From an uncultured Nitrospirota bacterium (GTDB lineage Bacteria; Nitrospinota; Nitrospinia; CAJXCL01), in assembly GCA_913051775.1 (NCBI GenBank), contig CAJXCL010000011.1, positions 1 through 46,161 of the forward strand: a stretch of DNA of 46,161 nucleotides. The letters run 5' to 3'. Positions 27,983 to 46,161 of this stretch are shown piece by piece (position 1 is the first letter of the stretch; the number at the start of each line of letters is the position of its first letter). Both the position numbers and the translations under genes were made by a program. Below the pieces are notes generated by a model. The model did not search any database, was not told where the DNA came from, and worked only from the letters and a program-made list of their open reading frames with translations.

Positions 27983-28653
27983 CTTACTACCAGACCTTTT
28001 CGCGCCCTCCATCATATTGTATCGGATGCCGGGAAAAGTTTCATTAACTCACAATGGTGTATTGTTTTTTAGACGAACTACCTGAACTCAAAAGAAATGT
28101 ATTGGAAGTTATGCAGCAACCCCTTGAAGATTTAGATGTTACTATCTCCAGCGCAATCTCATCCCTGACCTACCCCGCAAATTTCATGTTAGTGGCAGCT
28201 ATGAATCCCTGTCCATTCGGATGTACGCTGGAACAAATAAAAAAGTATGTTTCCCGCATATCAGGTCCGCTTTTAGACCGTATGGATATCCATGTTGAAG
28301 TTCCAGCCTTGAATTGTCAGGAAATGACTTCTAACTTAAGCGTGGAAAAATCAGAACAAATTAGAGAACGCGTAAAAAACGCAAGAGAGGCTCAATTAAT
28401 CCGATTTACCGGAGATAAAATCTACTGCAGCGCCAATATCACAATAGTATTATTAAAGAGGCATTGTAAAATCGACAGTGGTTCGGAAAAAATCATGGAG
28501 ACGGCAATCAGTAAATTAAGCTTAAGCGCCTTCGCTTACGACCGAATTTTGAAGGTTTCTCATACAATAACTGACCTTGCATATAAAGAAGACATCCAGC
28601 AGGAGCATATCTCTGAAGCTATACAATATCGCACTCTTGATAGGGAGAACTGA
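27983..28653 (+). pseudogene. comM: Broken ComM/YifB-type Mg-chelatase-like ATPase, C-terminal half
   Basis: TTRPFRALHHIVSDAG at 27983-28032 is the ComM block before Walker B, but the sequence then jumps to GKVSLTHNGVLF, omitting the usual LIGGG segment. An extra T in the T-run near 28064 shifts the frame before LDELPELKRNVLEVMQQPLE. The rest is open to the natural end (ILKVSHTITDLAYKEDIQQEHISEAIQYRTLDR). The cysteine-rich insert is also lost: NPCPFGCTLEQI instead of NPCPCGY...CTCTPLQI. The N-terminal half with Walker A is absent. ComM is a branch-migration helicase for natural transformation. Confidence 0.88.
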
Positions 28654-29988: not shown

Positions 29989-31255
29989 TTATCGTTTCTT
30001 TTTTTGATCACTCCCGAATACTTTGATTGTACCATATTCGCCATCATATCCGGGATTGATGCTGATATTCCCTTTTCTTACTCTCTCTATTCCATCCCCA
30101 ATCTTTGAAGAACTAACGCTCTTTATTTTTTCGATGTTCTCGTCTTGAAGTATTTTCATTTCATTTCCAAGGGCGCTCACGAGCTTCATGTATTCTCTTT
30201 GTACTGCTTTACTGTTTACTCCTACTTCTATAGCTTCTGAAATAATTTCCGCAAGAGGTATGAGACACTTGAAGGTTGGGAAATTTTTAGGTTTAAAACC
30301 TTCTTCTCTGTCGGCAAGCATATCCACTCTGTGCATAACGCCTGTTGTAACCTTTTTCCGGAAAACAGAACATAAGTTATTATTGTTTTTTGTACCTTTT
30401 GTCGGCATTCTGGCTTTGCATACGCGGTGCCCGTAGAAATGATACTTCCCCTCTTCAGGGAAAAACTCTATGGTGCCTAAAAATTTGCTTATGTTTCCTT
30501 CTATGATTGCATTTTTTATAGCCTTCTATGTCAAATCTGTGTTTGAAGATATTCGCTTCTCGCGCAATTTTAGCGGGAGAATGTGCGTCTGAATTAGAAA
30601 TAAAGGTAATATTTTTAAGAGCGGAAAGTCTCCAATTCATTGCCGGATCTGAGGAAAGTCCGGTTTCAATAGCGTGGATATTCGGAGTAAGTTCATCAAA
30701 GCATTCTTCAAGGGAATCAAAACCTGAACCGGATCCAAACACAGAGAAATGAGGCGTCCAGGCATGAGCAGGTATAAGCATTGTGTCATCTCCTGAATCA
30801 AGCACTATTTTCAGAAGCTCTTTCGCATCGAGATCTAATATAGGCCTGCCGTCTGATCTTAAATTTCCGATTTTATCCAGTTCTGAATTTATCTTTGCCG
30901 CTGTTTTAAAATCAGGTGCATATATAAGGTTATGTATTTTTCTGACTTTATTATTTTTGCTTTATATACTGCTGACCTCTGCTGATAGAAAAAAGCGAAC
31001 ATCTGCTTTACAAGAAACCGAGACTTCATTGATTTTAAAATCTTGAAACTCTTTTTTAAGAGCGAACAAACCTTCTTCTGCCGGTTCCAGCTTTTCCCTT
31101 AGTTCCGCGAACCATAGCGGGCGGGTAAAATCACCGGTAGCTATGACCGTGACCCCTTTTATCTGTGCCCATTTAAAGATATTATCAGGATTCATCTCTT
31201 TGCTTGTGGCGCGGGAATAACAGAAATCAATATGAAGATCCGCTATAAAAGCCAT
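29989..31255 (-). pseudogene. Broken PHP-domain protein (TIGR00375-like)
   Basis: The reconstructed ~420-residue protein starts MAFIADLHIDFCYSRATSKE and runs through GTGDF-type (ATGDFTRPLWF), GNLRSDGRPILDLD, PAHAWTPHFSVFGS, ETGLSSDPAMNWRLSALKNI, SNSDAHSPAKIAREAN and GVMHRVDMLADREEG to PGYDGEYGTIKVF. Lesion 1: TAA at 30962-30964 in frame between SSI and SKNNKVRKIHNL, where tyrosine is normal. Lesion 2: one extra A in the A-run at ~30514-30520, shifting EGYKNAIIEGNISKF. Lesion 3: the zinc-finger CPVC reads CSVF. The family is a putative metal-dependent phosphoesterase, sometimes near UvrD helicases. Confidence 0.9.
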
Positions 31256-31261
31256 ATTTTT

Positions 31262-32020
31262 TTAACTCAATTTCCTGCCGTTCGGATCAAAAATTTTTGA
31301 ACAGATTATTTTTCTTTTGCATAAGAAGAATTGTAAAGATGTAATAAGAACTCCAAAACCATATTTTACGCTTCTAGTAAAGTTAATAGACGATGCTTCT
31401 GGAAAATATTTTGTCGGACATGATATTTCGCCAATTGCAAATTTATTATAGATGCATTGGACAAGCATCTGGTTGTCAAAGAGAAAGTCATCCGCGTTTT
31501 CTTTCAGAGGTAGTAATTCTAATACCTTACGGCTAAATGCGCGATATCCGGTATGATATTCTGATAGTTTATACCCAAACATTAAATTCTGTATTAGAGT
31601 TAAGAAACGGTTGGATATATATTTATATAACGGCATTCCTCCTTTAAGAGCCCCCGTTCCTAAAATCCTTGAGCCGATGACAACATCAAAATGCTTGGAA
31701 GCAACCAGGTGAGCCATTGAAGCGATTAGTTTTGGAGAATACTGATAGTCCGGATGAAGCATAATAACAATATCCGCTCCTGCCTTAAGAGCCTCCCTAT
31801 AACATGTTTTTTGATTCCCACCGTACCCTTTATTGTCCGAATGAACAATGGTTTTTAAATTCAACTTTTTGGCTAATTCTACAGTATGATCACTGCTGGC
31901 ATCATCCACCAAGATAATATCGTCTACAATATCTTTAGGGATTTCTTTATAAGTGTCTTTTAAAGTTATCGCTGCGTTATACGCGGGCAGAACAACAATA
32001 ATTTTATTTTCATTGATCAT
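31262..32020 (-). CDS. Family 2 glycosyltransferase (polyprenol-phosphate sugar transferase-like)
   Basis: 252 residues from the ATG at 32020; the longer frame from 32098 has no homologous N-terminus. GT-A motifs: VVLPAYNAA at the start, DDASSDHT, the DxD-like HPDYQYSP, and YHTGYRAFSRKVLELLP. A short amphipathic C-terminus with one hydrophobic stretch (FGVLITSLQFFL) suggests membrane association. It is related to DPM1/polyisoprenyl-phosphate glycosyltransferases. It opens the glycan locus and is 6 bp beyond the PHP pseudogene, so it was probably once cotranscribed with it. Confidence 0.88.
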   Translation of the reverse strand: MINENKIIVVLPAYNAAITLKDTYKEIPKDIVDDIILVDDASSDHTVELAKKLNLKTIVHSDNKGYGGNQKTCYREALKAGADIVIMLHPDYQYSPKLIASMAHLVASKHFDVVIGSRILGTGALKGGMPLYKYISNRFLTLIQNLMFGYKLSEYHTGYRAFSRKVLELLPLKENADDFLFDNQMLVQCIYNKFAIGEISCPTKYFPEASSINFTRSVKYGFGVLITSLQFFLCKRKIICSKIFDPNGRKLS

Positions 32021-32402
32021 TTTGCAATTATATGAGTTTTTTTGTCTAAAAACCTTTCTAAAGAGAAATATATCCAGCCTCAACGGCAGCATTTGCAATT
32101 CTCTCTGAATACGTACAGAGCAGGCAAAAGAAAGGGTCTCTTCCCATTACAAATGAATCTGCATAACACGGCGAAACGGCAACGAGCAGGGAGTGCTGCG
32201 CATGAAGTAATTTTCTGCCATGCTCTATGCCTTCTGCTCCGTACAGGTTTGTTAAAAAAATTTCTTAAAAAATATCGAATTTCGAGTTTTTGCTTTTCAT
32301 CACTTATCCCTGTTTACATAGAAAGCTTGATCAATAAGGAATTGAACAATATAGAAAAACTAGTGAAAAAAATCAATTATACTTGTTTTACTTAAAACTA
32401 AT
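32021..32402. other. 382-bp gap with GC-rich repeat-like patch
   Basis: No gene seen. A GC-richer patch at 32156-32245 contains CATGCTCTATGCCTTCTGCTC, a word of the kind found in dispersed intergenic repeats. The rest is AT-rich. It separates the glycosyltransferase from the large membrane protein transcribed in the same direction. Confidence 0.35.
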
Positions 32403-34409
32403 CTATTTAACCCTAAAAATAATCCTAAAACCCAGTAAACTGACTGCTAGAAATACAAAAAAAAATACGGTTACAATATTAGCTATATTTTCTATAATAT
32501 TCTCTTCGTATTTGAAAATAATTTCGGATTCCTTTCCCAAAACCTCAACCCCCATAAAGTTAGGGTTTATGGGTATAATTTCTTTGTTTTTTCCGTCGAC
32601 AGTGACATTCCAGTTTGCATCATAGCTCTCCGCTATTACCAAAAAAACTGGAAATAGTCTTGGAGGTAAAGTGATTTTTATGTGTTCGCTTGATTCCTTT
32701 TTCATTTTTAAATTAGATGGAATATACTCGCCTGGTAAAGAGCCGGAGGAAGGGCTGCTAAATATTTTTTTGTGAAGCGTGACGTACGGATGGAAATTAA
32801 TATTTTTATATATCTTTGTTTTGCCAAATGCTTTTTCAAAAATGATTCCATTTTGCGACAGAAGTTCATCACTAAGATTATTTTTTTTGTGAAATAGAAT
32901 GAATTTTATGTTGCTTACTTTCATGTCTTCTATAAGAGATTCCTTTTTATTGGTTGAATTAATTATTCCACTCCTTAGATGAGTTTCAAGGAGATAGGAA
33001 GATTTGGCCACTTCTTCTTGATATGCCCCAAAAACTGTTCTTTTCTTATGAATCAATGGAGACAAAACATACCGAAAATCCTTTGGAAACTCTAATATTC
33101 TAAAGAAACCATTATGTTGTGAGATCCATTTGTAAGCATTCATATTGTCTTCTGAAAAATATGAATCTGTAGCCTTAAAGGCTACAGACCCGAATGGAAT
33201 ATAAAATAATAAAAATAAACAAAAAATACTATAGAAAAAAACCTGTTTGGCTTTTGCCCGATGATGGTTCAAAAAAAGCGCTATTTTACTTTCAGCCCAT
33301 TGATATCCCAGTCCACATAAAATACTCCCGGATAAAATAGTTATATACATATACCTGAACGGAAACCGGACCTTACTAACAAAAGGAATATGATTAATAA
33401 GGAGATAGAGATTTATGGGAGAGTACCTGCCTAAAACCAATAAATAAGAGACCACAAAAATTATAATCCAAACATATTTTGCCTTTTCATTTGATAAAAA
33501 TGAGAGTAAAACCATGAAGTAGAAAAGCGGGCTCAAATAAAATAAATCTTTTAAAAAACCAGGTTGATGTAAAAAAGTCAGCATGGGATGTACAGAAACT
33601 TCATAGATGATACTCCTTCCCCCAAGAGCAATATCAAACGCTGAGGTGTCCTCGATAAGCGTAAAAGGAACCCACACGAAAGAAAATAGAAACAAAAGAA
33701 GAATTGCAATAAAGGAATGAAATTTAATTATTTCCCGAAAAGGTGTAGTTTTTCCAATAATAAAAGTTGATATTCTGTTGAGAGCAAAAATACCAAGAAA
33801 AAAAAATCCGATTACTGAATACTGGATGCTAAAGGCAAGTAAGATGGTAGAAAGCAGGCAAAATTTTATCGCGTTCTTATAATTCATATTAGAAAGAAAT
33901 TGATCATAAACGATAAAAAGCAGGGGTAACAAAGCCCATGATGGAGCCCAAAACCATGCGGTACTCGTATTTCCAGAGTGAAAAGGAACAAGCGCAAAAA
34001 CTGTTGCCGATATCAGTGAGGCTTTCGGATTTGATGTCAGGCGGTAAACTATCATGTAAATAAAACATGCCCCTGTAAATACACATGCGATGATTAAGAT
34101 TTTCCAGGAGGTCAAAATTGAAATATTAAAAGCTATGCTAATTAAAGAGATAAGAAAGAAACTTAAAAATGGAAATTTTTCTAAAAAAGGACGTCCCCAA
34201 AAGGAATAGTCGCTCCAATTCGGTATAGAATGATGATTTAATAAAAATTCTTTGAAGTGCAAAGTAGGGATAATGTTAACCATACTTTCTCCCACGTGAT
34301 ACCCTGTAGGATGTAGTTGGTTTAGCCAACCTCTGGCATAAAATAGAATCAATAAAGCTAAAAAAATTATGTAGCAAATATTGATATTTTGTCTATTAGA
34401 TATTTTCAA
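32403..34409 (-). CDS. Large polytopic membrane protein (YfhO/6-PTPS-related, GT-C-like)
   Basis: 668 residues with about twelve hydrophobic helices in the first ~420 residues, followed by an extracytoplasmic domain of about 200 residues (AESYDANWNVTVDGKNKEI near its end) and a final helix (IVTVFFFVFLAVSLLGFRII). The layout, and the W-x-V-x-VDG-K motif in the C-terminal domain, match YfhO-type proteins, which act with polyprenol-linked sugars in glycosylating cell-surface polymers. Acidic residues in the first loop (GYHVGES, PNWSDYSFWGRPF) are consistent with GT-C active-site loops. Specificity unknown. Confidence 0.75.
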   Translation of the reverse strand: MKISNRQNINICYIIFLALLILFYARGWLNQLHPTGYHVGESMVNIIPTLHFKEFLLNHHSIPNWSDYSFWGRPFLEKFPFLSFFLISLISIAFNISILTSWKILIIACVFTGACFIYMIVYRLTSNPKASLISATVFALVPFHSGNTSTAWFWAPSWALLPLLFIVYDQFLSNMNYKNAIKFCLLSTILLAFSIQYSVIGFFFLGIFALNRISTFIIGKTTPFREIIKFHSFIAILLLFLFSFVWVPFTLIEDTSAFDIALGGRSIIYEVSVHPMLTFLHQPGFLKDLFYLSPLFYFMVLLSFLSNEKAKYVWIIIFVVSYLLVLGRYSPINLYLLINHIPFVSKVRFPFRYMYITILSGSILCGLGYQWAESKIALFLNHHRAKAKQVFFYSIFCLFLLFYIPFGSVAFKATDSYFSEDNMNAYKWISQHNGFFRILEFPKDFRYVLSPLIHKKRTVFGAYQEEVAKSSYLLETHLRSGIINSTNKKESLIEDMKVSNIKFILFHKKNNLSDELLSQNGIIFEKAFGKTKIYKNINFHPYVTLHKKIFSSPSSGSLPGEYIPSNLKMKKESSEHIKITLPPRLFPVFLVIAESYDANWNVTVDGKNKEIIPINPNFMGVEVLGKESEIIFKYEENIIENIANIVTVFFFVFLAVSLLGFRIIFRVK

Positions 34410-34432: not shown

Positions 34433-34894
34433 GTGGGGAGCATTAATGTTTTCCCTACCATTCTAAGCAAGCTAAGTATTAACCACAATTGCGAAGGCGG
34501 GAATTTGTTTCCGATTAGCAACAAAGAAAAAGCAGAAATCAAATCCCTGCTGGCATTTGGCGAAAATGACTATTCTTTGTTTTCCAACAATCAAAGGAAA
34601 TATATCAAAGGGATAAAAGGAAAATGGAGAATAGCACAGTCAAATCAGTGGAAGTTAATATTTATCCCAGACCCGAAAGAAAATATTTATGAATTTTATG
34701 ATATAAAAAATGACCCATTAGAAACAAAAAATTTAGCAAATAACACCCTGTACGATAAAGAAATTTAATACCTAAAACAAGAATTATTCCAATGGATTAA
34801 GAAAGAAGATATGCAAAACGCTGAAGAATTATCAAGAACTCGAATAAATCCTCATTTAAAAGAACGATTACAATCATTAGGATATTTTCAGTAA
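34433..34894 (+). pseudogene. C-terminal remnant of a sulfatase-family protein
   Basis: The frame starts VGSINVFPTILSKLSI, equivalent to the sulfatase block QV-D-FPT-L-LG. It continues with SLFSNNQRKYIKGIKGKWRI, NQWKLIFIPDP and EFYDIKNDPLETKNLANN, the typical sulfatase end (ELYDLxxDPxExxNLA). An in-frame TAA at 34766-34768 is followed without frame change by YLKQELFQWIKKEDMQNAEE and KERLQSLGYFQ, which ends with the customary LQSLGY. The catalytic N-terminal ~350 residues are missing, so the protein cannot be active. It overlaps the start of the divergent membrane-protein gene. Confidence 0.8.
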
Positions 34895-34944: not shown

Positions 34945-36042
34945 TCAAATCTTTTTGGCAGAAACCAGATTGCAGCACCCGGCACAAACCGGAAATGTTC
35001 CAACTTTTTTTAATGTTTTCCGCATGTCTTCATAAACAGTGCCCTGCCAGATATCTTTTACGCTTTTTTCGCGAATGTTGCCGGCGCTCTGAAAAGCTTT
35101 ACAGGTGATAACATCCCCATCAGGAGAAATAATCATTTGCATCCACGGGACAGAGCATCGAAAATGTTTAGGATTAAAGTCTCTATCCAGGTAATCAAGC
35201 CATTCTTTCCGAGTTATACCGTTAGGAGTGAATCGTAAATCGGTCTGGCCACTATTTTTTTTTAAGATATTATTAATTTGCTTTTCAAGTTTGTTCTTAT
35301 CTATTGAGTCGATTATTTCATAATTTCCGGAACTGTTACGATAATTTGTGTCAATATCTGTAGTTAACGCGTCCCAATCATAAAAATGAGCTATATTAAA
35401 TATATCTGCGCCAAATTCCTTTGATTGCTCATAAGCTTCCTTAATAAATGGAGCGTTTAAACCAATAAGTGTCATACGATTATCTATTATAGGAAATTTT
35501 TGTTTCATCTCCTTGCGTAATTTAAGAAGCATTTTAGTTCCTTTGGCCGTTTTTTCCCAGGAACCTTTCTTTTGAGTAATCTGGTCATGTATTTTTTCAC
35601 TCCCCTGTATGGAAATTCCTATAGAAATTAATCCTTTTCCAAAGATATTTTTAGGAGCATAAGAGAGAAGTTTTCTGCAAGAATCCTCTGTGAGAAAATT
35701 ACCATTTGTTACGAAGGTAAACCTGACATGAGATTTAACGGCATCAAAAATTTCAAAAAGGTCTTTACGAATCATTGGTTCTCCGCCTGTAAAAGTCATA
35801 ACTGCCGTCGATGGCAGTTGTTGGACCAGACGTCTATATTCATCTGGTGTGATAAGCTCTCTTCGGCTATTCTCAGATTCAAAGTCTATAAAACACATTT
35901 GACACCGCAGGTTGCAGTTATAGTTGAGTAAGCATGCAACGTAAGAGGGAAGTGGTAAAAAACGGATAGGTAAGTAGCGCTTTAAATAGGTAACATATAA
36001 GAGATAACGCCAATATGCCTTAGCAATTATTTGTTTTTTCAT
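34945..36042 (-). CDS. Radical SAM/SPASM-type enzyme
   Basis: 365 residues. The radical SAM cluster is C-x3-C-x2-C at Cys43, 47 and 50 (CNLRCQMC), then TGGEPMIRKDL and the VTNGNFL strand. A SPASM-like C-terminus has PWMQMIISPDGDVITCKAF and CAGCCNL. A basic, aromatic N-terminal helix (KAYWRYLLYVTYLKRYLPIR) precedes the barrel, as in several membrane-associated radical SAM proteins near polysaccharide genes. The substrate could be a peptide or carbohydrate/lipid carrier; undetermined. It is divergent from the sulfatase remnant. Intact. Confidence 0.88.
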   Translation of the reverse strand: MKKQIIAKAYWRYLLYVTYLKRYLPIRFLPLPSYVACLLNYNCNLRCQMCFIDFESENSRRELITPDEYRRLVQQLPSTAVMTFTGGEPMIRKDLFEIFDAVKSHVRFTFVTNGNFLTEDSCRKLLSYAPKNIFGKGLISIGISIQGSEKIHDQITQKKGSWEKTAKGTKMLLKLRKEMKQKFPIIDNRMTLIGLNAPFIKEAYEQSKEFGADIFNIAHFYDWDALTTDIDTNYRNSSGNYEIIDSIDKNKLEKQINNILKKNSGQTDLRFTPNGITRKEWLDYLDRDFNPKHFRCSVPWMQMIISPDGDVITCKAFQSAGNIREKSVKDIWQGTVYEDMRKTLKKVGTFPVCAGCCNLVSAKKI

Positions 36043-36194
36043 TTTTAAAAGCTTTCCAGCTTAACAGTCCCTATTTCCTTTTATTAATAAATCAATTAGA
36101 ATACTGATAAAAATTTAATTCTAAGAGATAATTCTCAGATTAGCAAATTTACAAAACCTCTTTCAATTGGCTAAAAAATATAATTCGGATCTAA

Positions 36195-36371
36195 TCAAAT
36201 ATTGAGAATTATGGTATTTCTCGCCATTTTCGAGCGCCTTTTGTTCCGTTTGCTTATAAAAATGAGGAACAGATCCTAAGTTTAGTTAAAAAAGGCCATA
36301 GAAAATTTTACTTTCGCCCTCAATATATTTTAAAATACTTAAGAAAATTAAAAATTCAGCGATTTACGTAA
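36195..36371 (+). pseudogene. C-terminal remnant of a B12-type radical SAM enzyme
   Basis: A 58-residue frame without a proper start, containing PFVPFAYKNEEQILSLVKKG and HRKFYFRPQYILKYLRKLK before TAA at 36369-36371. This closely resembles the helical C-terminus of B12-binding radical SAM proteins, for example FYLRPGYIFKTL in the intact protein at 39909-41318. It is the tail of a deleted paralogue. Preceding bases 36043-36194 show nothing recognisable. Confidence 0.6.
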
Positions 36372-36419
36372 GTTCAGGAATGAAACGAAAATGATTTTAG
36401 AGGCTAGAGCCGCAGTATT

Positions 36420-37355
36420 ATGAACAATCCCGATACTTTTATTTCAGTAATAATACCTATATATAATGAGGAGGAGAATATTGATGAACTCTGTGTCAGT
36501 CTAACAAAGGTACTTGAGGATTATAAAAAAGAATACGAGATTATTTTTGTGGATGACGGGAGCAGCGATCAAAGTATCGGTCTTCTAAAGAAATATCAAG
36601 ATACTAATAATAAAATAAAGATTATCAAATTGACAAAGAACTATGGACAACACATTGCTCTTATCGCGGGTATTGAGCATATAAAAGGAAACATTATCGT
36701 AACTATGGACGGAGATCTTCAAAATAGCCCGAAAGATATTCCAAAATTTATAAATAAAATTGAGGAGGGATATGACTTTGTGAGTGGATGGCGTGTAAAT
36801 AGATATGATCCTGTCTTAAGGAAAATTCCATCATATGTTTTGAACAAAATTATTTGCAAGATAACAGGCGTCAACTTTCATGACTATAATTGCGGTATGA
36901 ACGCTGTTAGAAAGAGCATTATTGAGAATATGGATAAATATGGTGAGATGAGAAAATTTTTTCCAGCTTTGATGGCAAAACTGGCTAACTCTTGCTGTGA
37001 AGTTCAGGTAGAGCATAATGCAAGGGCAAAAGGTAAATCCAAATATGATTTTTTAAAGCTTGTAGGTTTAGTCGCGGATTTTATAACAAGTTTTACCGTT
37101 AAGCCTTTCAGAGTTTTAGGAGTAACAGGCAGTTTTCTTGTTTCACTGAGTACTTTTTTTGGGATTATATTTATTATCGCCAGACTTTTTGGACTTACCG
37201 GCCCCATACCTCAAGTTCTTTTTATTCTGTTAATATCTTTTTTAAGTGGCATCCAGTTCTTAATATTAGGATTTATGGGAGAATATTTGATAAGAATCTA
37301 TCAATTGCTGCAGAGGGAAACACTTTTCCAGGTAGAGACTATTATTGAAAAATAA
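36420..37355 (+). CDS. Polyprenol-phosphate glycosyltransferase, family 2 (GtrB/ArnC-like)
   Basis: 311 residues. GT-A motifs: VIIPIYNEEENIDEL, FVDDGSSDQS, the catalytic MDGDLQNSPKDIP and YNCGMNAVRKSII. Two C-terminal membrane helices (about 235-255 and 265-290) follow GKSKYDFLKLVGL, the standard layout of GtrB, ArnC and DPM-like enzymes, which load a sugar on undecaprenyl phosphate. It would supply a sugar donor for the GT-C-like membrane proteins in this locus. Its 3' end overlaps the start of the broken epimerase gene, so the two once formed an operon. Confidence 0.92.
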   Translation: MNNPDTFISVIIPIYNEEENIDELCVSLTKVLEDYKKEYEIIFVDDGSSDQSIGLLKKYQDTNNKIKIIKLTKNYGQHIALIAGIEHIKGNIIVTMDGDLQNSPKDIPKFINKIEEGYDFVSGWRVNRYDPVLRKIPSYVLNKIICKITGVNFHDYNCGMNAVRKSIIENMDKYGEMRKFFPALMAKLANSCCEVQVEHNARAKGKSKYDFLKLVGLVADFITSFTVKPFRVLGVTGSFLVSLSTFFGIIFIIARLFGLTGPIPQVLFILLISFLSGIQFLILGFMGEYLIRIYQLLQRETLFQVETIIEK

Positions 37356-37784
37356 GAGCGTTTTGATAACTGGCGCATCAGAATTTATAAGGAGGCATCT
37401 TACAAAAAGTTTGTTGGAGAAAAATTATGAACTTGTTCTTACCTATTGCAATGGTAAAATCGATAGGGAATTTAAAAACTACTCAACCCAGATTAAACTT
37501 GATTTGACAAAAGAGCGGGATTAAAAAAAATCCAAGATTATTATTTATGTGAAAGATGTTGTGGAAGCTAACTATCTCGCGCTTAATTCAAATTAGGACG
37601 TCCCATTTAATATCTCATCTGGTCAAGGAACTAATATTGTTAAACTTGTCCATCTTGTAAAAGACATTTTTTCTGTCGGTAAATCCAGGGTTCTTTTTTA
37701 CAATAAAAAGCAGGGAGATAATACGAATTACTATTTTAATATTTCTAAAGTAAAAAAAGATTAGGTTATCCGGTTTATCCATAG
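37345..37784 (+). pseudogene. Degraded NAD-dependent epimerase/dehydratase
   Basis: A TTG at 37345 opens KNKSVLITGASEFIRRHLTK: the NAD-binding G-x2-G-x2-G has become GASEFIR, both later glycines lost. TAA at 37522-37524 ends the fragment. A large central deletion removes the Y-x3-K region. Sequence resumes with IIIYVKDVVEANYLALNSN, a TAG, then DVPFNISSGQGTNIVKLVHL, VKDIFSVGK and NYYFNISKVKKD. Finally a shift or TAG precedes GYPVYP and the end near 37784. The C-terminal pieces are a typical SDR epimerase end. It followed the GtrB-like gene in an operon. The rest up to 37885 holds no gene. Confidence 0.85.
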
Positions 37785-37885
37785 ATGGGTTAAGATTTTA
37801 TTTCATATTTATCCGTGCTAGATTTATTGTTTAATTGTGGCGAAAAGAGCCTTAATATTCTTCTAAACAAAATGAGCAAATCCTG

Positions 37886-38803
37886 ATGACAACTTATTAT
37901 TTTCCTCAAAGGATTAGTATAGAAATCACAAATAATTGTAATTATTTATGTGCAATGTGTCCCCAGGGTAAACTGGTAAGGAAAAAAGGGTTTATAAGTC
38001 CCGAGTTCTATAAAAAAATAATTGATGAATGCGTAAAATATAACCCCATGGTTTGGAACCATTTTATTGGAGAACCGTTGCTTCATAAGGATTTTTTTGA
38101 ATTGTTGGAGTATGCGGTAAAAAAAGGAATACGGAGTGGTTTTTCTACAAACGGTTCTTTTTTAGATGGTTCAGTCATCATGAAAATACTTAAATCTAGC
38201 GTTGAACGAATAGAGTTGTCTTTGGACGCGTTGAAAAAAGAAACTTATAATGATGTCAGAGGTATGAAAAACTTTAATGAGATTGAAAAAAATGTTAACC
38301 AGTTACTGAAAACCAAATACGATATGGGTCTTGAAAAACCGGTGGTGTCGATCCAGTTTGTCAAGCAGCATAAGAATATCCACGAACTGGAGGAGTTCAC
38401 GCGGAAGTGGAGTAAAATTCTGAAAGGGAAAGATTTTGTTAAAAGCATAGATTTTATTACATGGGCCGGTACTAAAACCAACAATAATAATGCAGAATTA
38501 AAATTGCCTTCACAGCGGGTCCCTTGCGGGAGAATATGGAAAAGCCTGGTTGTTTTGTGGAACGGAGAAGTCACGCCATGCACCAGTGATTACAACGGTG
38601 AATTAGTAATTGGTAATATAAAGGATGATTCGATAAAGAATATTTGGAGAAATGAAAGATTGCGAAAACTGCGAAGCTCACATGATTTTAACAGTTTTGA
38701 AAAATACCCTCTTTGCGCTAACTGCAATGAATGGATTCTTGAAAACGATACGGATAAATATAAAAATATTTCTATAAAAAATTTAGAAGGACACCTTCAA
38801 TGA
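37886..38803 (+). CDS. Radical SAM/SPASM protein
   Basis: 305 residues. The radical SAM cysteines are Cys18, 22 and 25 (CNYLCAMC), followed by HFIGEPLLHKDFF in place of the usual GGEP, and a FSTNGSFLD strand. The SPASM region has PCGRIWKSLVVLWNGEVTPC, the spaced GELVIGNIKD and CANCNEW. Such proteins often sit in glycan or RiPP-like loci; the GEPL variant is common among the environmental SPASM proteins. It overlaps the next gene by ATGA (38800-38803), so it is coupled to a nucleotide-sugar enzyme. Intact. Confidence 0.9.
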   Translation: MTTYYFPQRISIEITNNCNYLCAMCPQGKLVRKKGFISPEFYKKIIDECVKYNPMVWNHFIGEPLLHKDFFELLEYAVKKGIRSGFSTNGSFLDGSVIMKILKSSVERIELSLDALKKETYNDVRGMKNFNEIEKNVNQLLKTKYDMGLEKPVVSIQFVKQHKNIHELEEFTRKWSKILKGKDFVKSIDFITWAGTKTNNNNAELKLPSQRVPCGRIWKSLVVLWNGEVTPCTSDYNGELVIGNIKDDSIKNIWRNERLRKLRSSHDFNSFEKYPLCANCNEWILENDTDKYKNISIKNLEGHLQ

Positions 38804-39828
38804 AAACAATTCTTGTTACAGGCGGTGCAGGCTTTATAGGAAGTAATTTCGTTAAGTTCATTTATAAAAATTACCAGGATTATAAGATCATTGTCCTTGA
38901 TGCGCTTACTTACGCAGGTAATCTTGATAATTTTCCAGAAAAGCTGAAAAACGACGCCCAGTTTACATTTAAATACGGAAATATCCGAAATACGGAGTTA
39001 GTCGATAATCTTGTTTCTCAATCTGATATCGTCTTTCATTTTGCCGCGGAGTCACATGTTGCCAGATCAATTTTTGATAATGTGGTGTTCTTTGAAACAG
39101 ACGTCCTAGGGACTCAGGCGGTTACCAACTCAGTTTTAAAATATAATAAAAATATTGAAAAATTTATTCATATATCTTCCTCGGAAGTGTACGGAACAGC
39201 ATTACAAGAACCTATGACAGAGGAGCATCAACTGAATCCGCTTACTCCCTACGCAAGCGCTAAGGCCGGAGCAGACCGGCTTGTTTATTCCTATTGGACG
39301 ACTTATGAAATTCCGGCAGTGATAATACGTCCTTTTAACAATTACGGACCACACCAGCATCTGGAAAAAGCAATTCCAAGGTTTATCACCAGTGCAATTC
39401 TTGGAGAACCCCTTATTGTTCATGGAAACGGTAAAAGCGAAAGAGACTGGCTATATGTAGAAGATTGTTGCCTTGGATTGAATAGAGTTCTGAATTCCGA
39501 TATGGAACTAATAAAGGGAGAGGTTCTTAATATAGGCACAGGGAAAAGTGTTTCAATCTTGACGGTTGCTGAGGCGATCCTCTCAATGCTTGGAAAACCT
39601 AAATCACTTATCAAATTTAGTGAAGATAGGCCTGGACAGGTAAAAAAACATATATCATCTACAGAAAAATCAGAAAAATTACTACACTGGAAACCGAAAA
39701 CAGATTTTGAGACCGGACTGGAAAAAACTGTTAAGTGGTATAGCAACAATAGATCATGGTGGGAAAAACATTTATGGATGAGATCAATCCCGATTGTCTT
39801 GAAGGATGGTCAGCAGGTAAATTTTTAG
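38800..39828 (+). CDS. Nucleotide-sugar 4,6-dehydratase, SDR family (RmlB/LegB-like)
   Basis: 342 residues, extended SDR. NAD-binding TGGAGFIGS is at residues 7-15, catalytic Y-x3-K at Tyr151 and Lys155 (YASAK), and RPFNNYGPHQ is the substrate segment. In RmlB the dehydratase motif is TDEVYG; here it is SSSEVYG (126-132), which keeps the glutamate but replaces the aspartate with serine. This variant is known in UDP-GlcNAc 4,6-dehydratases of the LegB type, so the substrate may be UDP- rather than dTDP-sugar. It is translated from an ATG overlapping the SPASM gene. Confidence 0.82.
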   Translation: MKTILVTGGAGFIGSNFVKFIYKNYQDYKIIVLDALTYAGNLDNFPEKLKNDAQFTFKYGNIRNTELVDNLVSQSDIVFHFAAESHVARSIFDNVVFFETDVLGTQAVTNSVLKYNKNIEKFIHISSSEVYGTALQEPMTEEHQLNPLTPYASAKAGADRLVYSYWTTYEIPAVIIRPFNNYGPHQHLEKAIPRFITSAILGEPLIVHGNGKSERDWLYVEDCCLGLNRVLNSDMELIKGEVLNIGTGKSVSILTVAEAILSMLGKPKSLIKFSEDRPGQVKKHISSTEKSEKLLHWKPKTDFETGLEKTVKWYSNNRSWWEKHLWMRSIPIVLKDGQQVNF

Positions 39829-39908
39829 AATACTCTTATTCAGCCGCTAAGTTGTAGTTAAATTAGTGGTGCGCTATACAATAAACAATACACAAAGAGG
39901 AAATGTAA

Positions 39909-41318
39909 TTGAAAAAAGCTTTTTTTATAACTCCGCCTACTGGTCTGTGGGTCAGGGAAGATAGATGTCAATCCCCAATTGAGAAGACCATGTTTGCAGT
40001 AATTAGACCTCCTCTGAGATTGGGTCTTGCCGCGGCTATTTTAGAAGAGGCTTCATACAAATGTGCTATAGCTGATTATCCAGCTGAAGACAAAGGATGG
40101 GAAAGTTTCAAAAAAGATTTAAAGGAGTTTGATCCTGATATCCTTTTTGTCAGCACAGTTTTTAAAACAAGAAATGACGATTTTCGAGCATTTCGGATTG
40201 CCAAAAATAATAATAAAAATATTTTCACAATTATGAAAGGGTCTCCTTTAGGAGATGATGCAGGCGCTTTGGAAGAATGTGCTGAACTGGACATTTTTTT
40301 AACAAAAGAAATCGATAGATCTTTGATTTCCATTATTTCGAGAGAAAACCTTCATCAAACGACAGGAATTACTTTCAGGGAAAATGGTAATATAATTAAA
40401 ACCCCTCCGGCTCCTTTTATAAAAAACCTAGATGCTTTGCCTTTCGTAGCAAGACATTTGTTAAAAAATAATCTTTACCGCAGACCGGATACCTTGGAAC
40501 CGTTTACTGTTATTCAGGCTTCGAGAGGGTGTCCATTCAAATGTATTTTCTGTTCCGCTATAGTAGGAAGCGGTCAAGTATTGCGAAATCGATCACCTCA
40601 AAATATCGTTGATGAGATTGAAGAGTGCGTCAACAAATACGATGTAAACAATTTTCTTATGGGAGCTGAAACCTTTACCTGTGATAAAAAATGGGTTTTT
40701 AATATCTGTGATGAAATTTTTAAAAGAGACTTGAAAATAAATTGGTATTGTAATAGCCGGGTCGATACTATTGATAGGGAATTAGCGTCTATGATTAAAA
40801 AATCAGGTTGTTACGCTGTAAGCCTTGGAATTGAGTCTGGAAATCAAGAGACTCTCGATAAAATGAAGAAGGGGACGACTCTTACCCAGGCGGTGGAAGC
40901 CGTCCAGGTGTTAAAAGACGCTAAAATCAGGACTTACCTCTATTACATAATCGGTTTCCCATGGGAAACCAGGGAGATGATTCATGAGACGATAAACCTT
41001 GCATTAAAGCTCGATGGAGACATATCTGATTTTTATTTCGCGCACCCTCTTCATGGAACTGAATTATATAAGATGGCGAAAGAACAAAATCTCTTAATCG
41101 AAGACAACAACTTTGTATGTGATTTCCGGATTGATTCCTCTCATGTTTCTTTTAAAGAACAGAGTAAATTATGCCGCTCTGCGCTACTGAGATTTTATTT
41201 AAGGCCAGGTTATATCTTTAAAACTCTTGCTGTCATTCGTTCCCCTAAAGTTGCCTACCGGATTGCAAGGATGGGACTTTCAACTCTTTTTAAGTTGGTT
41301 AAAGCAACGCGTTTCTGA
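39909..41318 (+). CDS. B12-binding-type radical SAM enzyme
   Basis: 469 residues from TTG 39909, preceded by AGAGG. An N-terminal Rossmann-like cobalamin-type domain (PPLRLGLAAAILEE, DILFVSTVF) covers about residues 1-170. It lacks a clear D-x-H-x2-G motif, so cobalamin binding is uncertain. The radical SAM motif is SRGCPFKCIFC at Cys208, 212 and 215. The C-terminal helical part has FYLRPGYIFKTL. Members modify lipids, tetrapyrroles or sugars, often by methylation or C-C bond formation. It sits between the dehydratase and a large membrane protein, suggesting a role in glycan or lipid-linked precursor maturation. Confidence 0.88.
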   Translation: MKKAFFITPPTGLWVREDRCQSPIEKTMFAVIRPPLRLGLAAAILEEASYKCAIADYPAEDKGWESFKKDLKEFDPDILFVSTVFKTRNDDFRAFRIAKNNNKNIFTIMKGSPLGDDAGALEECAELDIFLTKEIDRSLISIISRENLHQTTGITFRENGNIIKTPPAPFIKNLDALPFVARHLLKNNLYRRPDTLEPFTVIQASRGCPFKCIFCSAIVGSGQVLRNRSPQNIVDEIEECVNKYDVNNFLMGAETFTCDKKWVFNICDEIFKRDLKINWYCNSRVDTIDRELASMIKKSGCYAVSLGIESGNQETLDKMKKGTTLTQAVEAVQVLKDAKIRTYLYYIIGFPWETREMIHETINLALKLDGDISDFYFAHPLHGTELYKMAKEQNLLIEDNNFVCDFRIDSSHVSFKEQSKLCRSALLRFYLRPGYIFKTLAVIRSPKVAYRIARMGLSTLFKLVKATRF

Positions 41319-41505: not shown

Positions 41506-43728
41506 ATGTTTTTTTTAAAACTTACAGTCTTATACATTTTAATTTACGGAATTATGTTTTTGTCCGGCTGGGGGATTTGTGAAAATGTTTGTAAAGGGAA
41601 AAATGCTGAGTATAAATTGCTTTTAGCCCCTATTATTGGGATTATACCTTTAGCAACGATACCGATGTATTTCAGCTTTTTAGGTTTCAAAGCTGCAATA
41701 TCCGGTTGGATTACATTTATTGTTTTTGCTTCTATATCTCTGTATTATTTAATAAAATATCCTGCTTCTTTTAAAAAGGCAAACTATCATTCTCCCTACC
41801 TGCTTTTATTTTTAATCTTAGCGGTTAGCCCGTCTTTTGTAATTATCTTGAAGGCAGGCTACCTGACAACTACTCTTCAAAGCTATTCCTCCCCTATTAT
41901 TTATCTTTCTGAATATTTTTCACAAAATTCAGCTATTGATAAAGTTAATCTCAACTTTTACAAACCACTTACAAATATGTTTGTAGAAGTATCTAAAGTT
42001 ACACCCTTTGTCGGTCATCTGTTTTTCATTGCGACAATCTCTTCTATTCTCAATATCCTTCCTTACAAACTGTATCTTATTCTGTCTGGAATAGGGGGAT
42101 CAATCATCCCAATAAGCGTTTTCATTGCCTGTAAGGAAGGTTTTAAGTTAGAAAAAAAAATTACCTTACTCATTTCTTTCTTGATCTCTATAAATATTTC
42201 TTATTTTTTCTGGCCAATGATTGGACATTTTCCATTTATAACAGGGATTGTTTATTTAATTTTAGGATTTGGATTCATCCCAGGCATGCTTGAATGTAAG
42301 GAACGAAGGGATTACATTTTCTATTCTTTAATTTTTGCGGGCCTAATGTCCATTTATTTTCAACTGATGCCTTATATCTTTGGAGTGGTTATATTGTACA
42401 TTTTTTTACGAAAAAAAATTTCATTTCAAAATCTTTTAATGACGCTGAAAAATATCGGAATAATATCTCTTATAACTTTTACAATAACTCCATTTGTATT
42501 TATTTTTTTAGTGAGACGCAGTCTTGAATTTACCGCCATCACTTCAAAAATTCCAAAAAATGTCCCAAGGTTTCCATACATGGAAGAATTATTCGGGTTT
42601 GGACAACATTTTTCCATGCGTCACGATGGGTCATTAAAATATTATCTACTCCTGCTTTTTACCATAATTCTTATATGGTTTATCTGCGCAGGTCTATATA
42701 ACTGCTTAAAAAATAGAAATATTATTTTTTTGTCTGTATGCGGGTTCATTTTTATTTTAGGAGCCTACTTTTCTTTAATTGATTTCACTTATCATTTTTA
42801 TAAACATTCTATTATTGGCGTTTTCATGATGACCTCCACTCTTGTTATTGGAGGAGATTTTTTATACAAAAAAATAAATCATAAGATTATTAAAATATCT
42901 ATTGTGTCAGTATTGCTTGTTTTTATTGTGCTAAATGTTAGAACCTATATAAAGGTTGCTCTTAAAAGTTCTCATTCTATAGTTACCAAGTCGTATATTG
43001 ATTTAGAGAATATCTCCAAGATTGTACCTGGTAACAAGCGTATACTGGTTAATTCACAAAACCCTACTGAAGAGGTGTGGATTTCATATTTCCTTAAAGG
43101 TAGTAAAATAAAACTGAGGGGAGCAATCGAGCCATGGGGATTCTGGATTTTCTCTCATTATTCCGGAAAACCTAATTTTAATTTCTTTTATGATTTTAAA
43201 AAAGATAAAATAGATTACACCTTGTCCAATAAGAGCAGACATAAAGCTGACATTGTCAACGTGGATTTTGGTGAAATTGCATATGAAAATGAGGATTATA
43301 TTCTCTCAAAAAATATTCCAAATCCATACCTGCTTAAAGGGTGGCATAATCCTGAGAAAAATAATAGCAGTGTATTCAGATGGACACAGAAAGAAAGTTT
43401 TGTTTTATTTAGAAGGCCGTATAAAAACTCGGTTCTTCATATAAAAGGGACTGTCCCTTCTGTTCACAAAAAACCAATTGAAATCATAATAAAAATTAAT
43501 GATAAGTTAATTGACAAATTTTCCTCAGATGAATCTTTAGATATTGATAAACAGTATCCATTAGACCAATATCCGCTAAAAAATAACAATAACGAACTAT
43601 CCATTATTCTAAGCGATACTTTTGTCCCAAATGAGCTCTGGGGTTACAATGATTTGAGAAGGCTGGGAATGAGGATCTATGGTATAAATATATTTCCTTT
43701 AAAAAATATAGCTAAAAACAACATATAA
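41506..43728 (+). CDS. Large polytopic membrane protein, putative GT-C-like transferase
   Basis: 740 residues. About ten to twelve membrane helices occupy residues ~1-480, then a soluble C-terminal domain of about 260 residues with ISKIVPGNKRILVNSQNPTE, YFLKGSKIKLRG and FVPNELWGYNDLRRLGMRIY. The layout resembles GT-C or YfhO-type enzymes and the protein at 32403-34409, although I cannot name the family. An early acidic/hydrophobic motif (SYSSPIIYLSEYFSQNSAID) lies in the first extracytoplasmic loop. It probably glycosylates a surface polymer using a polyprenyl-linked donor. Confidence 0.65.
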   Translation: MFFLKLTVLYILIYGIMFLSGWGICENVCKGKNAEYKLLLAPIIGIIPLATIPMYFSFLGFKAAISGWITFIVFASISLYYLIKYPASFKKANYHSPYLLLFLILAVSPSFVIILKAGYLTTTLQSYSSPIIYLSEYFSQNSAIDKVNLNFYKPLTNMFVEVSKVTPFVGHLFFIATISSILNILPYKLYLILSGIGGSIIPISVFIACKEGFKLEKKITLLISFLISINISYFFWPMIGHFPFITGIVYLILGFGFIPGMLECKERRDYIFYSLIFAGLMSIYFQLMPYIFGVVILYIFLRKKISFQNLLMTLKNIGIISLITFTITPFVFIFLVRRSLEFTAITSKIPKNVPRFPYMEELFGFGQHFSMRHDGSLKYYLLLLFTIILIWFICAGLYNCLKNRNIIFLSVCGFIFILGAYFSLIDFTYHFYKHSIIGVFMMTSTLVIGGDFLYKKINHKIIKISIVSVLLVFIVLNVRTYIKVALKSSHSIVTKSYIDLENISKIVPGNKRILVNSQNPTEEVWISYFLKGSKIKLRGAIEPWGFWIFSHYSGKPNFNFFYDFKKDKIDYTLSNKSRHKADIVNVDFGEIAYENEDYILSKNIPNPYLLKGWHNPEKNNSSVFRWTQKESFVLFRRPYKNSVLHIKGTVPSVHKKPIEIIIKINDKLIDKFSSDESLDIDKQYPLDQYPLKNNNNELSIILSDTFVPNELWGYNDLRRLGMRIYGINIFPLKNIAKNNI

Positions 43729-43796: not shown

Positions 43797-45020
43797 ATGG
43801 ATACAGAGACAAACAGTGAAGAGATTGATGTAGAAAAAATAATGGGAAAAATACAAGACAGTATCAAAAAGAAGGAGGAACAGGGAATTTACAGCAATGA
43901 AGATACTGAAATGGTTAATACAGGACCATTTATGAAAAATAATGACCCCTGGGACGACATGAACAAATTCCTGAACGATTTAAATTTATGTTGGGACCCG
44001 AGGAAAGACAGTCCAATAACTACCCATAGAATATATACCGGTCCACTTGTCGTTTTTATAAAGAAGGTGATGAGAAAAATTTTAAAATTCTTTCGAATTC
44101 CTAATTTACTACTATCGAGGCAGGCAGCATTTAACTTCCAGGTATTAAAAGCCATTAATTACTTAACTGCTGATATGCCTGTTGAAGGCAGCTCTCTCTC
44201 AAAAAAAATCTATGAATTGAAGCGAGAAAATACACTGCTGAGACAGCGACTGGACCTTATATTGGCGGAGATTGAGAAAAAATATGATTTGCCGGAACAA
44301 GCAGCGGTTAGCATTGTTCGTGAAAAGAATCGCACGGAAAACCATAACTATCTCCTGTTTGAAAATAAGTTCAGAGGTGATAGAGAAGAAATAAAAAAAA
44401 GACTTGAATTTTACCTGCCGTTATTTAAAAAAGCAGACAATGTGCTTGATATCGGCTGTGGAAGAGGCGAGTTCCTTGAGATGCTGAATGACCAAGGCAT
44501 TAATGCGACAGGTATCGATACTAACGAGGCGATGGTTTCTTTTTGTAATGAAATAAAACTGAAAGTCCAGCAGGCAGAAGCTATAACTTATTTGTCCTCT
44601 GTTAGCGATGCTTCATTGGGAGGACTTATTGCTTCCCATGTCATAGAACACTTTAGTAATGATTTGCTTGATCAGTTTACAAAACTTTGCTTCCTGAAAC
44701 TGAAAAATGGAGCTTCTATAGTTTTTGAAACGCCAAACCCATTGTCAATAGTTGTGTCAGCAACAAATTTTCACCTCGATTTATCACATGTTAAGCCCTT
44801 GCACCCGGAAACTGTTAAATTTCTACTGGAGTCTAATGGCTTTACAGATGTTCATATTCACTATTTTTCGCCTTTTCCTGACGACATGAAATTTGAATTT
44901 ATTAAAGATTCTTTTTTTTCTTCAAAGAAAAAAACTGTTGATCAGTTAAATAAGAATTTTCAAAAATTAAATGACCTTCTTTACGGTTATCAGGACTATG
45001 CGGTTATAGGTAAGAAATAA
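43797..45020 (+). CDS. SAM-dependent methyltransferase with coiled-coil N-terminus (WbdD-like)
   Basis: 407 residues. The first ~180 residues are charged and helical with a coiled-coil segment (LSKKIYELKRENTLLRQRLD). The methyltransferase domain starts with VLDIGCGRGEFLEML at 216-230 and continues with GIDTNEAMV, HVIEHFSND, FETPNPLSIVVSATNFHLD and THVRPLHPE-like SHVKPLHPET. This combination is common in O-antigen clusters, where WbdD-type enzymes cap and measure polysaccharide chains. It is immediately followed by a glycosyltransferase of the type usually paired with such methyltransferases. Intact. Confidence 0.88.
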   Translation: MDTETNSEEIDVEKIMGKIQDSIKKKEEQGIYSNEDTEMVNTGPFMKNNDPWDDMNKFLNDLNLCWDPRKDSPITTHRIYTGPLVVFIKKVMRKILKFFRIPNLLLSRQAAFNFQVLKAINYLTADMPVEGSSLSKKIYELKRENTLLRQRLDLILAEIEKKYDLPEQAAVSIVREKNRTENHNYLLFENKFRGDREEIKKRLEFYLPLFKKADNVLDIGCGRGEFLEMLNDQGINATGIDTNEAMVSFCNEIKLKVQQAEAITYLSSVSDASLGGLIASHVIEHFSNDLLDQFTKLCFLKLKNGASIVFETPNPLSIVVSATNFHLDLSHVKPLHPETVKFLLESNGFTDVHIHYFSPFPDDMKFEFIKDSFFSSKKKTVDQLNKNFQKLNDLLYGYQDYAVIGKK

Positions 45021-45041: not shown

Positions 45042-46161
45042 ATGATTAAAGTAGCGTTTGTTGTTCAGCGATATGGTTTGGAAGTAAACGGCGGCGCTGA
45101 ACTAGAATGCCGATGGACTGCCGAACATATGTCTAAATATTGGGATATTGACATTCTTACCACCTGCGCTATTGATTACGATACCTGGAAGGATGAATAT
45201 AAGCCCGGTAAAGATGTCATTAACGGGATTTCTATAAGGCGTTTTTCAGTGGATGGAGAAAGAGATAAAAAGTTTAATCAATTTTCCGATATCGTACTTA
45301 ATAATAAAAACAGCAGGAATATTGAGTTAGAATGGATGAGGTTACAGGGACCATATTCCACCACGCTTTTTAATTATTTGGAAGAGAAGAAGGAGTATTA
45401 TGACTATTTCATATTTTTTACGTATCTTTATGCCACTACATTTTTTGGTCTTCCTATCGTTAAGAATAAAGCGCTGATGGTTCCCACAGCCCATGATGAA
45501 CCGGCTATTTATTTAAAAATATTTGATGAATTATTCGATCAGCCCGTGCGCATCATATTTAATTCACAGCAGGAAATGAATTTCCTCCGTCGAAGATTTA
45601 AAAACCTTCGAGAGGGGGACATTATTGGAGTCGGAATTAATTGCCCAGATCATTTTGACGGCAATAGGTTTTGCAGAAAATACAACATAAAAAATGACTT
45701 TTTGTTATATATTGGGAGAATCGATACCGGTAAAGGTTGTAAAGAACTGTTTGATTTTTTTTTAAAATTTAAGAAAGAAAATAAAATAAGAACTAAGTTA
45801 GTCTTGTTAGGCAAGCCTCAAATGGGCATACCTAAATCAAGCGAAATCATACATTTAGGATTTGTTTCCGAACAGGATAAGTTTGACGCGCTTGACGCAT
45901 CCCGCTTTCTCATAATGCCCTCCTTTTATGAAAGTCTGTCTATGGTTACCCTTGAAGCGTTCTTTACAAAAACCCCTGTTTTGGCCAATGGAAGGTGTTT
46001 GGTTTTAAAAGACCTGTGCAGAAAAAGTAATGGTGGATTGTATTACACCAATTATGCCGAGTTCTCAGAATGTCTTAACTTTATGTTAGAAAATAATGAA
46101 ATTTCAAGAAAACTTGGGAGCCAAGGAGCAGTTTTTGCTAAAATGAATTACAATTGGGATA
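45042..46161 (+). CDS. Glycosyltransferase, GT4/GT-B type (3' end outside window)
   Basis: ATG at 45042, preceded by GTGAGGA; open for 373 residues to the window end. The N-terminus MIKVAFVVQRYGLEVNGGAE is typical of GT-B glycosyltransferases adjacent to O-antigen methyltransferases. The C-terminal Rossmann half has LLYIGRIDTGKGCKELF and the nucleotide-binding E-x7-E: PSFYESLSMVTLEAFFTKTP followed by VLANGRCLVL. It transfers sugars from nucleotide donors, inverting or retaining not determined. It continues the polysaccharide operon with the preceding methyltransferase. Confidence 0.9.
   Translation, partial: MIKVAFVVQRYGLEVNGGAELECRWTAEHMSKYWDIDILTTCAIDYDTWKDEYKPGKDVINGISIRRFSVDGERDKKFNQFSDIVLNNKNSRNIELEWMRLQGPYSTTLFNYLEEKKEYYDYFIFFTYLYATTFFGLPIVKNKALMVPTAHDEPAIYLKIFDELFDQPVRIIFNSQQEMNFLRRRFKNLREGDIIGVGINCPDHFDGNRFCRKYNIKNDFLLYIGRIDTGKGCKELFDFFLKFKKENKIRTKLVLLGKPQMGIPKSSEIIHLGFVSEQDKFDALDASRFLIMPSFYESLSMVTLEAFFTKTPVLANGRCLVLKDLCRKSNGGLYYTNYAEFSECLNFMLENNEISRKLGSQGAVFAKMNYNWD

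Follow-up and report, generated by a model that had tools for sequence, protein, structure and literature searches.

The window, the 46,161-nucleotide stretch of DNA analysed here, belongs to a Nitrospinota (class Nitrospinia) MAG of 2.05 Mb and 96% completeness that encodes 50 radical SAM proteins. At the contig end it carries a block in which three radical SAM genes (A, B and C) lie among genes for an ArnC-like GT2, an RmlB-like dehydratase, membrane proteins, a methyltransferase and a GT4. With a probability of about 0.6, we read this block as a mosaic surface-glycan locus drawn from at least three sources, whose RmlB, B, C and GT2 products would share in the chemistry of a sugar. The first source would be a decayed B12-type radical SAM–GT2–epimerase module of which only GT2 is intact and whose matching radical SAM and epimerase genes are on another contig (C1), the second an operon conserved in Nitrospinota that contributed RmlB and whose other members are scattered in this genome, and the third a local recruitment of A, B and C. 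The observations of a first-pass annotation of this DNA are partly confirmed and its interpretation is partly supported, the specific chemistry being a matter of inference.

Two probable sources: a decayed module and a conserved operon

The GT2 (36420-37355, + strand), assigned by Pfam and NCBIfam to the polyprenyl-phosphate sugar transferase type, consists of a GT2 domain and two C-terminal membrane segments, scores 253.7 bits against the ArnC equivalog NF007986 (cut-off 529) and is the sole protein of its subtype in the genome, where the next best reaches 41%. It is flanked by two remnants. The first (36198-36353, +), already noticed in the first-pass annotation, comes from a B12-type radical SAM protein of 471 residues, of which it keeps the C-terminal stretch 402-453 (52 residues); it shares 73% identity with the intact gene L082:3435-4850 on contig C1 and 58% with L111:2052-3437. 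The second (37345-37761, +) retains residues 1-59 and approximately 186-280 of an NAD-dependent sugar epimerase, with stops and a deleted middle, and is 60-66% identical to L082:2486-3418 on the same contig of the same genome (G000:C1), where the two intact genes form an adjacent pair (L082:4850-2486). G041:C51 (L111) has the order B12-type radical SAM–GT2–epimerase in intact form, and the window GT2 groups with the GT2 encoded there (SH-aLRT 93; 46% identity). The GT2 and its two flanking remnants are a decayed copy of this module whose partners survive on C1, that is, a case of reciprocal loss. Reciprocal gene loss of this kind breaks up pathways and spreads them over several loci, and makes it risky to read a pathway from a single neighborhood.

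The two internal remnants, together with a sulfatase-like fragment and split upstream genes, might also mean that the entire block is decaying and mostly functionless. We consider this highly improbable: the three radical SAM genes, GT2, RmlB and the genes downstream of C all have their full length, the radical SAM and cluster cysteines are intact, and RmlB is well conserved (72% identity to its counterpart in G015).

The RmlB-like NDP-sugar 4,6-dehydratase (38800-39828, +), the start of which overlaps the stop of B by 4 bp, narrowly misses the cut-off of TIGR01181 (340 bits against 365.1) and finds its best PDB match in 6bi4 (E 7e-80). It is the only protein of its type in the genome and falls in a clade of support 100 with orphan copies and the RmlB proteins of a conserved Nitrospinota operon, of which it is an ortholog. 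The naming and placing of a polyprenol-sugar transferase and a nucleotide-sugar dehydratase in the first-pass annotation were accurate.

This operon, with the order RmlB–WbqC–radical SAM–[B12-type radical SAM]–GT2–radical SAM–methyltransferase, was found in four families at 31 Nitrospinota loci, ten of these loci including the B12-type gene. Its genes have stayed linked in a large part of the phylum, as a set that is apparently undescribed, no account of it or of the window locus having been found in a literature search that had subscription journals outside its reach. The window holds the same gene families, but whereas its RmlB is orthologous, its A, B, C and GT2 are only about 30% identical to their operon counterparts and are not orthologous to them; nor do these four genes have an adjoining WbqC gene, and gene order and strand differ. 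In phylogenetic trees, A and B lie outside the operon clades and the A2 and B2 proteins of the same genome inside them, although these trees were rooted at the midpoint and have long branches, which leaves the deep positions of both proteins uncertain. The operon orthologs of this genome are scattered over contigs C33, C1 and C24, those of radical SAM genes A and B being on C33 and C1. Both the trees and the location of the true orthologs led us to reject the window block as the operon ortholog as far as A and B are concerned.

A bolder proposal, which we advance tentatively, is that the operon makes a Nitrospinota-specific polyprenol-linked 6-deoxysugar remodelled by its two or three radical SAM enzymes, and that the window holds a rebuilt second version of it in which B would carry out an oxidation and C a deoxygenation. 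If so, Nitrospinota, to which some marine nitrite oxidisers belong, would have radical chemistry on lipid-linked sugars as a regular feature of their cell envelope, beyond its known places in antibiotics and hopanoids.

Radical SAM proteins A, B and C

A (34945-36042, - strand) matches Pfam Radical_SAM (E 3.6e-17) and has a SPASM-model C-terminus, with cluster cysteines at 296/314/353/356 and a CxxCC tail; the C-x17-C...CxxCC arrangement is common to A and the first radical SAM protein of the conserved operon. B (37886-38803, +) matches the Pfam Radical_SAM and SPASM models, has the radical SAM CxxxCxxC motif (C18, C22 and C25, invariant in distant homologs) and carries auxiliary-cluster cysteines C214/C232/C277/C280 in BtrN-like spacing. 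The last three of these align ungapped to BtrN, matching three of its four cluster cysteines. The full SPASM signature (two auxiliary clusters, seven to eight C-terminal cysteines) is absent from A and B, which have four or five only; with four C-terminal cluster cysteines each, they are therefore twitch-type proteins with one auxiliary cluster, so that the first-pass description of two SPASM-type radical SAM enzymes stands for the radical SAM part and falls for the full SPASM fold.

BtrN, the 2-deoxy-scyllo-inosamine dehydrogenase of butirosin synthesis (PDB 4m7s/4m7t), is closest to B by both sequence and fold and likewise has a single auxiliary cluster. It is the top sequence match (E 1e-16) and ranks first in Foldseek (5.8e-14) and in VIA-align (Z 23.0, 2.4 A over 228), with a small margin over other twitch/SPASM folds (Z 23.0 against 21.3). 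Identity is only about 20-25%, and B resides in an LPS-type locus whereas BtrN belongs to aminoglycoside synthesis. By analogy with BtrN, B would oxidise a secondary alcohol of a sugar.

C (39909-41318, +; Pfam Radical_SAM, E 1.5e-24) has the architecture of AprD4 and HpnJ, in keeping with the B12-type assignment made for it earlier, but its B12-binding domain (PF02310) scores 22 bits, below the Pfam cut-off of 32.1, compared with 62.8 for its conserved-operon counterpart. AprD4, the 1,2-diol dehydratase of apramycin synthesis (PDB 6fd2), is nearest to C by sequence (E 1.2e-22; 20% identity) and by whole-length structure (Z 36.8, 2.6 A over 419 residues; next entry 29.8), although C gives 99 bits against the AprD4 model NF033070, whose cut-off is 500. 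The top NCBIfam model is HpnJ (TIGR03471; 194.4 bits, cut-off 577.6). C also resembles the B12-type radical SAM proteins of TIGR04295 (B12_rSAM_oligo, an NCBIfam hypothetical equivalog; 66.6 bits, cut-off 400), the name of which suggests an oligosaccharide context. By analogy with AprD4 and HpnJ, C would remove a hydroxyl or rearrange a sugar ring. As all NCBIfam equivalog scores of the radical SAM proteins are far below cut-off, B may be something other than a dehydrogenase, and C something other than a dehydratase.

HpnJ is a radical SAM enzyme that follows a glycosyltransferase in the HpnI-HpnK-HpnJ route to bacteriohopanetetrol cyclitol ether (PMC12583986) and has a lipid-linked amino sugar as its substrate. 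C has the radical SAM architecture in common with it, but the window GT2 is ArnC-like and not HpnI, and no match to squalene-hopene cyclase (PF13243) was found in the 96% complete genome; C is consequently not part of hopanoid synthesis, and an HpnH/I/J pathway was rejected on this absence and on the low HpnJ score.

The sub-cut-off NCBIfam matches allow a reading outside glycan metabolism, in which A and B would be peptide or metalloenzyme maturases, or C would act on lipids, all placed here by the scatter of a genome rich in radical SAM genes. The nearest named models for A are haem-d1 and haem-b radical SAM proteins, with sactipeptide enzymes also among its near-matches; those for B are tungsten-enzyme and metalloenzyme maturases, and those for C include, besides HpnJ, BchE and a ladderane-lipid model. 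We regard this reading, to which the count of 50 radical SAM proteins also lends itself, as unlikely: the enzymes whose solved structures lie closest to B and C have aminocyclitols or sugars as substrates, all three genes are flanked by glycan genes, squalene-hopene cyclase is missing, and an incidental reading of the ORF lists brought no RiPP precursor to notice.

Genomic association of A, B and C

A comparison with 77 genomes from the phylum placed the nearest relatives of A in G013 (contig C123, 36% identity) and G015 (contig C235, 33%), those of B in G044, G041 and G013, and those of C in G005 and in three f4-family genomes; they belong to different families and neighborhoods. Only G013:C123 joins A-like, B-like and GT2-like genes, the last 44% identical and approximately 4 kb from A. 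On 80 contigs from many phyla, the neighbors of the C family are mostly unrelated, and a common neighborhood was sought and not found. An ArnC-like GT2 recurs weakly beside the C family (5 contigs above 100 bits), the pairing of B12-type radical SAM with ArnC-like GT2 being seen in Nitrospinota, Omnitrophota and a PVC bacterium, and two loci (L129 and L075) have UbiA-like and heptosyltransferase-like genes nearby, as recognised from sequence starts only. In simulations that placed 50 radical SAM genes at random on 2.05 Mb, 40% of runs produced a group of three inside 6.4 kb, and the trio by itself is therefore not beyond chance. Overall, radical SAM genes do cluster in this genome (14 neighboring pairs lie less than 3 kb apart, where 3.4 would be expected). 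Grouped as they are here, A, B and C do not represent a conserved pathway.

That A, B and C nonetheless form one co-inherited pathway, which would act on a lipid-linked glycan in several radical steps, appears quite unlikely to us. The G013 contig, the 31 loci with an operon of the same families and the close packing of B, RmlB and C on one strand speak for it; the separate families and contigs of the closest relatives, the many C-family contigs without an A or B neighborhood, the remnants that mark the block as rebuilt, the opposite strand of A and the simulations speak against it. The proposal of unusual radical chemistry on a glycan gains from the conservation of the operon, whereas the treatment of the three genes as a unit does not, their relatives being mostly in different neighborhoods.

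Proposed sugar chemistry and flanking genes

Returning to the mosaic locus, its most likely function is to make an oxidised or deoxygenated 6-deoxysugar and load it onto a polyprenol carrier. RmlB would supply an NDP-4-keto-6-deoxyhexose, B would oxidise a secondary alcohol of the sugar, C would take off a hydroxyl or rearrange the ring, GT2 would put the modified sugar on undecaprenyl phosphate, and a membrane-embedded transferase would then decorate LPS or another surface glycan. We infer these substrates, reactions and their order, as well as the joint action of B, RmlB and C; involvement in glycan chemistry is supported by the fact that, among characterised proteins, those most closely related to B and to C are sugar enzymes.

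Several genes that the first-pass annotation had counted in the interval 34945-41318 lie outside it. A second polyprenol-type GT2 indeed exists at 31262-32098 (-; dolichyl/polyprenyl-phosphate hexose transferase type by Pfam and NCBIfam, queried with 31262-32020). Of the two supposed GT-C membrane proteins, the one at 32403-34409 (-) is multi-spanning with a sub-threshold YfhO-like C-terminus (PF09586, E 0.0013, 17.6 bits, cut-off 28.5), and the one at 41506-43728 (+), with approximately 14 hydrophobic segments, is GT-C-like in appearance only. Neither matches a Pfam GT-C family or has a DxD/ExD/DD-type motif in its N-terminal 250-300 residues, and the GT-C assignment was dropped. The SAM-dependent methyltransferase at 43797-45020 (+), with its domain at 184-407 and 3dli as nearest solved relative, was likewise withdrawn as a WbdD protein, which requires both a kinase and a methyltransferase; Pfam finds methyltransferase families only. 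The contig stops within the GT4 gene (45042-46161, +), placing the remainder of the locus beyond view. A scan of promoters and terminators gave results near chance level. A sulfatase-like fragment is found at 34433-34768, and genes further upstream are split. The window also contains a gene for LpxK, which indicates lipid A synthesis.

Gene content and enzyme classes of the locus

The core of the gene finding in the first-pass annotation is accurate: open reading frames and profile matches place radical SAM A (34945-36042, -), an ArnC-like transferase (GT2; 36420-37355, +), radical SAM B (37886-38803, +), an RmlB-like dehydratase (38800-39828, +) and radical SAM C (39909-41318, +) where they had been reported, although the multi-spanning membrane proteins, a methyltransferase, a GT4 and another GT2 of the polyprenol type fall slightly outside the proposed 34945-41318 locus. 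Since B and RmlB overlap by 4 bases and the genes from B through GT4 are closely spaced on one strand, their sequence arrangement points to a probable shared transcript.

Several domain labels needed correction. A and B, described as SPASM-type, do hit SPASM in Pfam, yet only four cysteines stand at the expected cluster sites in either protein (296/314/353/356 in A, plus 357; 214/232/277/280 in B), which by sequence is a twitch arrangement holding a single auxiliary cluster. The architecture of C is B12-type, although its B12-binding domain scores under the Pfam cut-off; AprD4, the solved structure nearest to it, does not, to our knowledge, bind cobalamin. Neither of the membrane proteins called GT-C-like has a Pfam GT-C match, one of them showing a sub-threshold YfhO tail, and the 'WbdD-like' identity of the methyltransferase is unsupported because Pfam finds no kinase domain in it.

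The best solved structure for B is BtrN by sequence (E 1e-16), Foldseek (5.8e-14) and VIA-align (Z 23.0, 2.4 A over 228 residues), with the sugar enzymes BlsE and DesII, and peptide maturases too, close behind. For C, AprD4 ranks first by sequence (1.2e-22) and structure (Z 36.8 over 419 residues, the next entry scoring 29.8; model mean pLDDT 90). Equivalog cut-offs were missed widely throughout, narrowly by RmlB, and the matches of B and C are therefore resemblance rather than family membership. HpnJ is the top NCBIfam model for C; a hopanoid role is ruled against by the absence of a squalene-hopene cyclase from the genome bin (2.05 Mb, 107 contigs, 96% complete), in which the window makes up the entire contig C11.

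In the most probable scheme, RmlB would supply a 4-keto-6-deoxy sugar nucleotide, B may oxidize an alcohol, and C may remove a hydroxyl or rearrange a ring. The ArnC-like GT2 would load a sugar onto undecaprenyl phosphate, possibly jointly with a radical SAM/epimerase pair on contig C1, and a membrane transferase would deliver it to a surface glycan.

A decayed module within the locus

The 'remnant of another' radical SAM enzyme was borne out: 36198-36353 encodes the C-terminal end of a radical SAM protein of the B12 type, 73% identical to an intact gene on contig C1 (L082:3435-4850, -), and epimerase fragments at 37345-37761 are 60-66% identical to the adjacent C1 gene (L082:2486-3418, -). 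Because these remnants match the C1 pair, and G041:C51 (L111) holds B12-type radical SAM, GT2 and epimerase in intact order, the window is read from sequence as carrying a decayed copy of this module in which GT2 alone survives. The L111 GT2 is 46% identical to that of the window, and the tree makes it the closest neighbour (SH-aLRT 93). On C1 the radical SAM and epimerase genes persist with no GT2 between them, and the window GT2 is single-copy for its type in the genome (next best 41%). The simplest reading would be duplication followed by reciprocal loss between the window and C1.

An ArnC-like GT2 with a B12-type radical SAM gene beside it or close by, and at some loci an epimerase as well, recurs in Nitrospinota, Omnitrophota and a PVC bacterium (L111:15-3437, L082:1610-4850, L199:9785-14406, L159:5368-7834, L202:6863-9285).

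Elsewhere in the window, a broken gene beside A (34433-34860) encodes a sulfatase-like C-terminal fragment, recognized by eye from the motif EFYDIKNDPLETKNLAN, with its N-terminus missing and no Pfam match. Upstream (28054-28653 and 30455-31255) are what look by eye like gene fragments, one resembling ComM/Mg-chelatase and one a PHP-like ORF interrupted by a stop; they suggest more gene decay on that side. A deoxyhypusine synthase homolog, here in a bacterium, lies at 5032-6099 (PF01916, E 1e-71).

Clustering, relatives and a conserved operon

The genome has 50 radical SAM domains; when these are placed at random, 40% of simulations contain at least one set of three within 6.4 kb. Neighbouring pairs less than 3 kb apart number 14 against 3.4 expected, indicating clustering genome-wide. 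The dense spot, eight genes in ~15 kb of contig C35 (L078, G000:C35:1-20000), is much denser than the window's cluster and also includes GT2s and RmlB-like genes, together with an SDR and a PMT_2 membrane protein.

The interpretation of the locus as a single unusual pathway is only partly supported. The window's genome is assigned to Nitrospinota: its nearest relative with a named record, contig C410 of G005 (JAJDAS010000410), is from a Nitrospinia bacterium, and the 77 genomes of the phylum that were compared all come from a single class. Among these, the closest relatives of A (G013, G015), B (G044, G041, G013) and C (G005, family f4) mostly occur in different genomes; the sole partial conservation found is G013:C123, with A-, B- and GT2-like genes in ~10 kb. 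For the most part this is the outcome that the first-pass annotation had named as evidence of an accidental grouping. Yet the phylum does retain a related operon built from these gene families, at 31 loci in four Nitrospinota families (L067, L068, L069, L070, L086, L088-L110, L112, L113, L117). Its order is RmlB or a different epimerase first, then WbqC, a radical SAM gene, in 10 of the 31 a B12-type radical SAM gene, ArnC-like GT2, radical SAM and methyltransferase. The count takes in loci ended by contig ends, and the G043 operon is divided over two contigs.

Operon members share roughly 50-75% identity across families, whereas they are ~30% identical to A, B, C and GT2 of the window, and in trees the window's A and B fall outside the operon clades. 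The window RmlB, the sole copy of its kind in the genome, groups in a fully supported clade with operon RmlBs and orphan copies from other families. Operon orthologs are dispersed in the window's genome (A2 on contig C33; B2 together with GT2 and methyltransferase on C1; WbqC, likewise on C1; a homolog of the operon's B12-type enzyme on C24). No description of the operon was found in the open-access papers searched, and it is apparently an undescribed relative of the window set. The arrangement in the window deserves less attention than this operon and the cross-phylum B12-type radical SAM/GT2/epimerase module.

A Nanoarchaeota contig (L137:3439-13365) groups three B12-type radical SAM genes with a BtrN-like one, 36% identical to the operon's B counterpart.
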